A DNA stretch of 64,000 nucleotides from Hymenobacter edaphi. GTDB lineage: Bacteria; Bacteroidota; Bacteroidia; Cytophagales; Hymenobacteraceae. Positions 3,864 through 8,387 of this stretch are shown here, one piece after another. The notes beneath the pieces were generated by a model that made no database searches, had not been told where the DNA came from, and saw only the letters and a list, made by a program, of their open reading frames with translations. Both the position numbers and the translations under genes were made by a program. Numbering within the stretch: position 1 is the first letter of the stretch; each line of letters starts with the position of its first letter. The DNA is taken from NCBI RefSeq assembly GCF_003258365.1, contig NZ_QHKM01000008.1, positions 62,001 to 126,000 on the forward strand, given 5' to 3'.

Positions 3864-6800
3864 ATGTTCAACAAACTGATTATGCTCAGCCTCCGGCACA
3901 AGCTGGGGGTGGGCATCGGGGTGGCGGCGCTGCTGGTATGGGGCCTCTACGCCCTGCGGCACCTGCCCATCGATGCGGTGCCCGACATCACCAACAACCA
4001 GGTTATCGTCTTCACCGTGGCGCCCTCGCTGAGCGCGGCCGACGTGGAGCGGCTCGTCACCTTCCCGGTGGAGCAGAGCATGGCCACCATTCCGGGCCGC
4101 GAGGAAGTGCGCTCCTTTTCCCGCGCGGGGCTGTCGGTGGTGACCATCGTGTTCGGCGACGAGGTGGACCACTACCGGGCCCGGCAACAGGTGGCCGAGC
4201 GCATGCGCGCCGCCGAGGCGCAGATTCCGCCCGGCCTGGGCCGGCCCGAAATGGGGCCAGCCACCACCGGCTTGGGCGAGATTTACCAGTACGCCATCCG
4301 CGTCCGGCCCGGCTTCGAGCAGAAATACTCGCTGGCCGAGCTGCGCACCCTGCAGGACTGGGTGATTCGGCGGCAGCTGCTGGGCACCACCGGCGTGGCC
4401 GATGTGTCCTCGTTCGGCGGCTACCTGCGCCAGTACGAGGTGGCCGTAGCGCCGGACCGCCTGCGCAGCTTCGGGCTGACCATAGCCGACCTGCAGACCG
4501 CCCTGAGCCGCAACAACGGCAACGCCGGCGGCGGCTACCTGGTGCGCGGGCCGCAGGCCTGGTTTATCCGCACCGAGGGGCTGGCGCAGTCGGAAAGCGA
4601 CATCGGGCGGGCGGTGGTACGGCCGGCGGCGCCCGGGCGCGGGCCGGTGCTGGTGCGCGACGTGGCCGAGGTGCGCCCCGGCGCCGCGCCGCGCTTCGGG
4701 GCGCTGGTGCGCAACCACACCGGCGAAGCCGTGGGGGGCATGGTGCTGATGCTGCGCGGGGCCAACGCCTCGGAGGTGGTAGCGGCCGTGAAGACCCGGA
4801 TGGCCGCCATCGAAAAGACGCTGCCGCCCGGGCTGGAAATCCGGCCCTTCATCGACCGCACCAAGCTGGTGGACCAGGCCATTCACACCGTCGAGAAAAA
4901 CCTGGCCGAGGGCGCGCTCATCGTGATTTTCGTGCTGGTGCTCTTTCTGGGCAACCTGCGCGCCGGCCTGCTGGTGGCCTCCGTTATTCCGCTGGCCATG
5001 CTCTTTGCCATCGGCATGATGCAGGTCTTCGGCGTGTCGGGCAATCTGATGTCGCTCGGGGCCATTGATTTCGGGCTTATCGTCGACGGGGCCGTCATCA
5101 TCGTGGAGGCCACCATGCACCGGCTGGCCGCGCGCTTCGACCCGCACCACAGCGCCGGCGAAATTCCGCCGCCCACCCAAGACCTCACGCCCGCCGAAAT
5201 GGACGAGGAAGTGTACGACGCGGCCTCGCGCATTCAGCAGTCGGCCTCGTTCGGGCAGTTCATCATCCTGATGGTGTATTTGCCGATTCTGGCTTTGGTG
5301 GGCATCGAGGGCAAGATGTTCCGGCCCATGGCCCAGACGGTGGCCTTCGCCATCCTGGGCGCCTTCATCCTCTCGCTGACCTACGTGCCGGTGATGTCGG
5401 CGCTGGTCTTGCGCAAGGGCGTGCGCGGCGGGGGCTGGTCGGAGCGGGCGCTGGCCTGGCTGGCGGTGCGCTACCGCCGCCTGGTTACGCGCGTGCTCCG
5501 CGTGCCCCGGCTGGTGGTGGGGGCCGCCGGGCTGCTGCTGGTGGGCGCGGCCCTGCTGCTGGGCACGCTCGGGGGCGAGTTTATTCCCACCCTGGAAGAG
5601 GGCGACTTCGCGGTGGAGACGCGCGTGCTGCCCGGCTCCTCGCTCGACTACACCGCTCGGCAGGCCCGGCTGGCGGCCGATATTCTCAAGGAGCAATTCC
5701 CGGAGGTCAAGGAAGTGGTGGCCAAGGTCGGCTCCTCGGAAATTCCCGTCGACCCGATGCCGCTGGAGGCCTGTGACTTGATTGTGGTGCTCAAGGACCG
5801 CCAGGAGTGGACCACGGCCGACAGCCGCGAAGGCCTGGCGGCCAAGATGGTGCGGGCCCTGAGCGTGCTGCCGGGCGTGACTTACAGCTTTCAGCAGCCC
5901 ATTCAGATGCGCTTCAACGAGCTGATTTCGGGGGCGCGGCAGGACGTGGTCATCAAGATTTACGGCGAAGACCTCGACCAGCTGGCCGGCTACGCCCGCC
6001 GCGTGGGCGCGGTGGTGCGCCAGGTGCCCGGCGCCGCCGACCTCTACGTGGAGCAGGCCACCGGCCTGGCGCAAATCGTGGTGCAGCCCGACCGGGAGCG
6101 GCTGGCCCAGTACGGGCTGAGCGTGCAGGACCTGAACCAGAGCCTCGAGGCCGCCTTTGCCGGGGCGGGCGCGGGGCAGGTGTTCGAGGCCGACCGCCGC
6201 TTCGACCTGGTGGTGCGCCTGGCCGACGAATACCGCCACGACATCCGGCAGGTGCGCGCCCTGAACGTGCCCCTGCCCGGCGGCGGCCAGGTGCCGCTGG
6301 AGCAGGTGGCGCGCGTCGAGTACCAGGTCGGGCCCAGCCAGATTCAGCGCGACAACGCCCAGCGGCGCATTACGGTGGGCTTCAACGTGCGCGGCCGCGA
6401 CGTGGAAAGCGTGGTGCAGGATGTGCAGGCGGCCGTGCAGCGCGGGGTGAAGTTCGGGCCCGGCTACGTGACCACCTACGGCGGGCAGTTCGAGAACCTG
6501 CGCCAGGCCAACGCCCGCCTCGCGGTGGCCGTGCCGGCGGCGCTGCTGATGATTTTCGGGCTGCTTTACCTCACCTTCGGCTCCCTGCGGCAGGCCTGGC
6601 TTATCTTCACCGCCATTCCGCTGGCGGCGGTGGGCGGGGTGCTGGCGTTGTGGCTGCGCGGGCTGCCGTTCAGCATTTCGGCCGGGGTGGGCTTCATTGC
6701 CCTGTTCGGGGTGGCCGTGCTCAACGGCATCGTGCTGCTGAGTGCCTTCAACCACCTGCGCGACTCCGGTATCCGGGACGTGCGCGCGCGGGTGCTGCGC

Positions 6801-8387: not shown

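Follow-up and report, generated by a model that had tools for sequence, protein, structure and literature searches.

A heavy metal RND pump fused to an outer membrane factor through a predicted internal signal peptide in Hymenobacter edaphi

Here we describe a gene of Hymenobacter edaphi in which an HME-RND pump and an outer membrane factor (OMF), two proteins of different membranes, are read as a single chain. According to our analysis, this gene very probably encodes a pump-channel polyprotein, which signal peptidase I would cleave at the end of an internal signal peptide. The sequence strongly suggests that the ordinary signal peptidase of a soil-type bacterium cuts one chain to give two proteins located in two membranes. 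The fusion as such is not new, since fused genes are already present in databases; the novelty would lie in an internal signal peptide that splits one chain between two membranes.

Pump and channel in a single reading frame

The window is the whole stretch of DNA analysed, 64,000 nucleotides of contig NZ_QHKM01000008.1 (positions 62,001 to 126,000), in a genome of 6.04 Mb, 43 contigs and 99.96% completeness. The fused gene and its parts are the following:

3864..8387, + strand: single gene for HME-RND pump, putative internal signal peptide and outer membrane factor, 1507 aa
3864..6980, + strand: RND pump domain, residues 1-1039, ending with the last conserved TM helix (Pfam, TIGR00914, alignment)
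6981..7103, + strand: junction, residues 1040-1080, a short cytoplasmic stretch and then a signal-peptide-like segment (sequence)
7047..7085, + strand: hydrophobic core of the putative internal signal peptide, residues 1062-1074, VAAAGAALLLLGL
7095..7106, + strand: predicted signal peptidase I site, A1078-A1079-A1080 before Q1081
7104..8384, + strand: outer membrane factor in its predicted mature form, 427 aa, 46.7 kDa (Pfam, AF2, Foldseek)

The open reading frame (3813..8387, +) is stop-free and has a natural ATG at 3864. A sequence-only reading had proposed that one frame holds a complete HME-RND pump followed by a TolC-type factor, and Pfam, TIGR00914 and the uninterrupted 1507 codons agree with it. 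A stop between the domains, which that reading took as evidence against itself, is absent from the frame, and fused orthologues occur in the genus. The full chain has 162.7 kDa and its predicted parts 116.0 and 46.7 kDa, near the 165, 113 and 45 kDa anticipated earlier. We consider the fused frame genuine because 41 of the 53 loci of our first retrieval are fused, orthologues with 84-93% identity exist in six of the seven other genus genomes searched, and on a Hymenobacter plasmid NCBI annotates the fused frame as one CDS. The last two observations rule out a sequencing or frameshift artefact. Among named genomes, Hymenobacter jeollabukensis matches best (89% in its top segment, in a scan that may omit the window's own nearest records). 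The genome of the window also carries a second fused copy (61%) and two unfused HME-RND genes that are more distantly related (L003 and L004), each of these two with a separate OMF gene within 3 kb.

Regarding the pump, ACR_tran matches residues 7-1041 with 931.5 bits (cut-off 28). The CusA/CzcA profile TIGR00914 covers residues 1-1042 along model positions 1-1035 of 1051 with 1144.5 bits against a curated cut-off of 701.45, a full-length match that places the protein in the HME-RND family. Among solved relatives ZneA is the best (E 5.2e-200) and CusA comes next (7.5e-172). The TM4 signature reads D402-F-G-L-I-V-D408-G-A-V-I-I-V-E415, where D402, D408 and E415 fit the divalent (Czc/Zne) pattern D-F-G-x-x-V-D-G....E; in alignments it agrees with ZneA and differs from CusA. 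We take this D/D/E set to be the mark of divalent-cation (Czc) pumps and its residues to be important. The substrate is likely a divalent cation, since ZneA is the closest relative, the TM4 signature is ZneA-like and the methionines of CusA are replaced. Indeed, the copper site of E. coli CusA is formed by three methionines, M573, M623 and M672, as stated in the available part of PMC11213822, and the aligned pump residues are E, A and E (positions counted by hand), which rules out a CusA-type Cu/Ag pump. The earlier reading of a fused HME-RND pump stands, with the refinement that by alignment the pump is nearer to ZneA than to CusA.

The channel part shows OEP (PF02321) in two stretches, the best one at residues 1112-1281 (82.3 bits, cut-off 22), and these two repeats together with a TolC topology make it a member of the OMFs. 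An AlphaFold2 (AF2) model of residues 1001-1507, built on an alignment of 45 rows from the window and the genome scan, has a mean pLDDT of 83.5 and exceeds 90 in most OMF blocks. Its elements follow the order H1, H2, a strand pair, long H3, H4, H5, H6, strands, long H7 and H8, which fits the order published for TolC and OprM (available part of PMC8277102). Foldseek against PDB retrieved OprN, TolC, SilC, CusC, CmeC and OprM with probability 1.00, E values of 1.9e-15 for OprN, 2.4e-14 for CusC and 2.8e-13 for TolC, TM-scores by query of about 0.6 and rmsd of 5-7 A. We also considered a lipoprotein channel such as E. coli CusC. It was ruled out by the lack of a Cys at +1 in 141 fused homologues, 139 of which have Q at this position and the other two T and K.

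The junction and its predicted cleavage site

The last conserved pump helix is followed by about 20 residues, hydrophilic for the most part, and then by VAAAGAALLLLGL-STP-AAA and QTPDP. The Ala/Leu stretch ending TPAAAQTP that had been noticed earlier is therefore present, with its core at residues 1062-1074 and with Q1081 encoded at 7104-7106. Most of AF2 model residues 53-97, which correspond to the junction, have pLDDT below 50. Between TM12 and the core, the n-region of the window protein has a net charge of 0 (2 E, 2 R) with both R nearest to the core; among homologues it is +1 or more in 110 of 121 and 0 or below in 11. The site and the last charged residue before it are 25 residues apart (median 20 of 139 proteins), so the length of the charge-free segment would suffice for an uncleaved helix.

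Most substrates of signal peptidase I in Bacteroidetes follow a Q-rule, exposing an N-terminal Q which is later cyclised; the Q-value averages 71% per species and surpasses 48% in 332 of 334 species (available part of PMC5837995). Given this rule, a Q conserved next to a small residue at the close of a hydrophobic stretch looks like a cleaved signal peptide of this phylum. The window junction shows features of such substrates, a hydrophobic core, small residues at -3 and -1 and Q at +1 (AAA before Q). It resembles the substrates in PMC5837995 and PMC10653852 in its small -1 residue and +1 Q after a hydrophobic core, and differs from them in that its signal is internal, behind a 12-helix protein. 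The terms 'RND' and 'TolC' are absent from the text of PMC5837995, and a term search of PMC10653852 gave neither 'RND' nor 'efflux'. The authors of PMC5837995, in its available part, call pyroglutamate in inner membrane proteins untested.

Conservation of the site among fused homologues

We gathered 141 fused sequences: 41 from genome, phylum and genus searches, 80 named loci (L054-L133), fused by selection because a C-terminal query was used, and 20 long-frame loci. The site test required a Q directly behind an A, G, S or C (which fixes -1 to these residues) at 8-25 residues from the start of the best hydrophobic 12-mer. It was passed by 139 of the 141 homologues and by 68 of the 70 clusters below 60% identity, counts that are not independent as the homologues are related to one another. 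Conservation of the cleavage site, proposed beforehand as a check, was thus found. The two failing sequences read ASA before T (L206) and LYG before K (L207). Of the 68 site-bearing clusters, 56 have A at -1 and 65 have a small or aliphatic residue at -3. The junction is otherwise variable: 25-59 residues separate TM12 from Q in the first 121 homologues, and the sequence varies (the junction of L210 was anchored some residues late).

As controls, of 1281 hydrophobic segments taken from the pump domains of these proteins only 110 passed the test, as did 24% of shuffled junctions of the first 121 homologues (a figure with a loose window and kinship ignored). Ten distant unfused pumps (L003-L008 from the same genome and L050-L053 from the genus) end 23-48 residues after TM12, and a second hydrophobic segment was not seen in their tails. 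We also looked for fusions without Q. The C-terminal third against the class of G003 (80 genomes) gave 2 matches at E<=1e-30, and seven divergent members from family f24 (L191-L197) have AQ too. Neither the class of G003 nor these members thus provided a good natural control, one whose lineage lacks the Q-rule.

A probable polyprotein cut during export

Based on these data, we propose the following sequence of events. The RND part would insert its 12 helices, leaving the chain after TM12 in the cytoplasm. Residues 1062-1080 would then act as an internal Sec signal peptide, N-in and C-out, that takes the OMF part to the periplasm, where signal peptidase I would cleave between A1080 and Q1081. 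The freed OMF would have 427 aa and an N-terminal Gln, probably cyclised to pyroglutamate; it would reach the outer membrane, trimerise and pair with the RND trimer via the adaptor encoded by the adjacent gene. Unless trimmed off, the spent signal peptide would remain with the pump and form its 13th membrane segment. In this scheme, export, cleavage, cyclisation, 1:1 supply and metal efflux are inferred, and what was observed is the single frame, the two complete domains, the conserved site, the short linker and the split relatives whose signal peptides are N-terminal.

A different possibility is that the hydrophobic segment is a TM13 and the channel stays covalently bound to the pump in the assembled system. 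Proteolysis is only predicted, the segment could span the membrane with the 25 residues that go from the last charge to the site in the window protein, and the linker of this protein is long, 25 residues by alignment and 27 in the AF2 model, the longest of 139. However, the distance from Q to the first OMF helix (measured from an alignment anchor, n=139) has a median of 6 residues, a range of 2-25 and a value of 3 in 31 of 139 members, against the 120 A or more, approximately, that would have to be covered from the inner membrane even with pump and channel in direct contact. This value comes from the periplasmic part of RND pumps, 40+30 A tall, and from the OMF alpha-barrel of 100 A, whose equatorial ring, at the middle of the barrel, contains H1 (available part of PMC8277102); the N-terminal helix of TolC runs from the equator to the outer membrane (available part of PMC13082787). 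At 3.6 A per residue, the linker would reach some 20-30 A in the median member and up to about 97 A in the window protein. As the arithmetic uses published dimensions of other pumps it is strong evidence and no proof, and since the window linker is the longest of 139 the argument is weakest for the window protein itself. A permanent tether gives no reason for the conserved Q after a small residue, and it sits badly with the repeated changes between fused and split states. We regard it as quite unlikely, because the linker is too short to reach the mid-barrel N-terminus of the channel.

Another explanation is that an internal translation start yields some or most of the OMF as a separate product, and the upstream frame merely runs on. 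An in-frame ATG, GTG or TTG precedes the hydrophobic core in 103 of the 141 homologues, and in the window a GTG is found at V1062. Against this, ATG occurs in only 46 of 141, the frame is kept open through the junction, and the same signal peptide and its cleavage would still be required. An internal start is not the rule for all members because 38 of the 141 have none of the three codons before the core; as a general account we find it improbable, and judging from the codons some species may gain additional channel copies from a separate start.

Split relatives

Fourteen close relatives with a pump of 1047-1082 aa were hand-picked as a split set, and their surroundings were examined. In all of them the RND ends 11-25 residues after TM12. 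A separate OMF gene lies in 12 of the 14 stretches (none was seen in those of L135 and L137), and 11 of these 12 OMFs, six of them close kin (L140-L144 and L147), have a signal peptide ending at Q; L138 has LHA before T. The OMF has the same kind of start site whether fused or split, which fits two proteins that are apart after export. In L028/L146 and in L147, stops lie between the pump and channel genes.

A FastTree phylogeny with SH-like support was made with 52 fused rows (the representatives, out of 70 clusters, whose pump sequence is complete), 14 split rows and 4 outgroup rows. On this RND tree the split state requires at least 7 changes and is nested among fused rows. L146 has a fused row as its closest neighbour on the tree, and L147 a split one. 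The outgroup row L053, with a branch of 6.6, fell inside the ingroup; it was taken as wrongly cut and no inference was drawn from it.

Taken together, the conserved site, its agreement with the Q-rule, the short linker and the split relatives with N-terminal sites favour the cleaved polyprotein proposed by the sequence-only reading, and the tethered pump-channel, which it had given as the alternative, loses ground as the linker after the site is too short in nearly all members.

Frequency of the fusion and its presence on plasmids

The sequences point to a fused frame that is frequent among close relatives. In a phylum search, 209 of 395 genomes matched at E<=1e-200, a search in which fused genes are favoured because the query itself is fused. 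A hand count among the 150 matches listed gave 135 uninterrupted frames of 1437-1567 aa, 13 below 1400 aa and 2 with internal stops. A long frame is by itself no proof of an OMF part; 20 loci picked for long frames all had a tail of 409-431 residues after TM12. The first 30 loci from the 395 phylum genomes (L001 and L009-L037) comprised 28 fused and 2 split.

The joining of proteins from two membranes is odd enough to suggest a chance fusion by loss of a stop codon, non-functional or with a dead channel domain. This oddity is the only point in its favour, and it is opposed by the presence of the fused frame in many genera of Bacteroidota among the named genomes, by the 84-93% identity of orthologues within the genus and by a predicted OMF fold that has pLDDT above 90 in most blocks and matches solved OMFs. 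We therefore see hardly any room for it.

The sequence-only reading also stated that such fusions are annotated in Bacteroidota, and this was confirmed, as Hymenobacter plasmid records carry them under an RND transporter label. The C-terminal third matches 21 plasmid records, all from Hymenobacter; among the 20 records listed, 16 bear the name 'CusA/CzcA family heavy metal efflux RND transporter' and 4 are unlabelled. In one record seen in full, the fused CDS is flanked by a DUF6660 gene and an adaptor gene. Fused Hymenobacter genes are thus also plasmid-borne (L106 and at least 20 records of 42-306 kb), and one of them adjoins a heavy metal P-type ATPase gene.

Relation to known systems and significance

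No description of the processing of a pump-channel fusion was found in literature titles and abstract openings, where absence is weak evidence as subscription journals were outside the scope, nor in the available parts of PMC5837995, PMC8277102, PMC11213822, PMC4827864, PMC13082787, PMC6281302 and PMC10653852. A 2016 survey of outer membrane proteins describes fusions of such proteins as rare in its available part, and the passages covered, 12 of 16, mention no RND fusion (PMC4827864).

As in CzcCBA, ZneCBA and CusCBA, RND pump, adaptor and OMF are three functions in the window system, which differs from them in that pump and OMF are one gene product. Regarding the predicted processing, the nearest precedent is the fbcH cytochrome b/c1 polyprotein of Bradyrhizobium, reportedly described by Thony-Meyer and colleagues in 1991. 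There, one gene encodes a polytopic membrane protein, behind which comes an internal signal sequence that signal peptidase reportedly cuts. Both b/c1 products stay in the inner membrane, whereas those of the window would sit in different membranes.

A broader proposal, which we put forward tentatively and as possible rather than probable, is that a polyprotein cut at an internal Q-rule site is the standard Bacteroidota build for metal efflux, supplying pump and channel 1:1 per translation, with a functional 13th helix that may help to recruit adaptor and channel near the place of synthesis. If the polyprotein model is true, many Bacteroidota 'CusA/CzcA RND transporters' each hide an outer membrane protein, and fractionation, topology and structure work on such proteins would otherwise be misread. 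Additionally, it would be a clear bacterial case in which ordinary signal peptidase divides one chain between two membranes, and it would bear on how pump and channel amounts are matched.

Neighbouring genes

Two genes next to the fused one were considered:

8561..9751, + strand: periplasmic adaptor (CzcB/CusB-like), the third efflux part (Pfam, family profile)
3324..3734, + strand: small ORF of 136 aa immediately before the pump gene, rich in His and hydrophobic in an N-terminal segment

As the adaptor gene follows the fused gene, the tripartite metal pump is complete in two genes; an adaptor homologue was found at E<=1e-4 in 79 of the 80 named loci (L054-L133). The His-rich ORF gave no Pfam match, and at E<=1e-4 it is matched in 15 of 210 loci including that of the window, many loci being too short. 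In Hymenobacter sp. YIM 151500-1 a DUF6660 gene occupies the corresponding place. This ORF is possibly a metal-binding or sensing accessory. Further upstream, a MarR-type regulator is encoded at 2134-2769 (+). The window also contains beta-lactamase-fold (PF00144) genes at 811-2133 (-) and 12870-14525 (-), the first of which has a weak, below-cut-off match to a type IX secretion C-terminal sorting domain.
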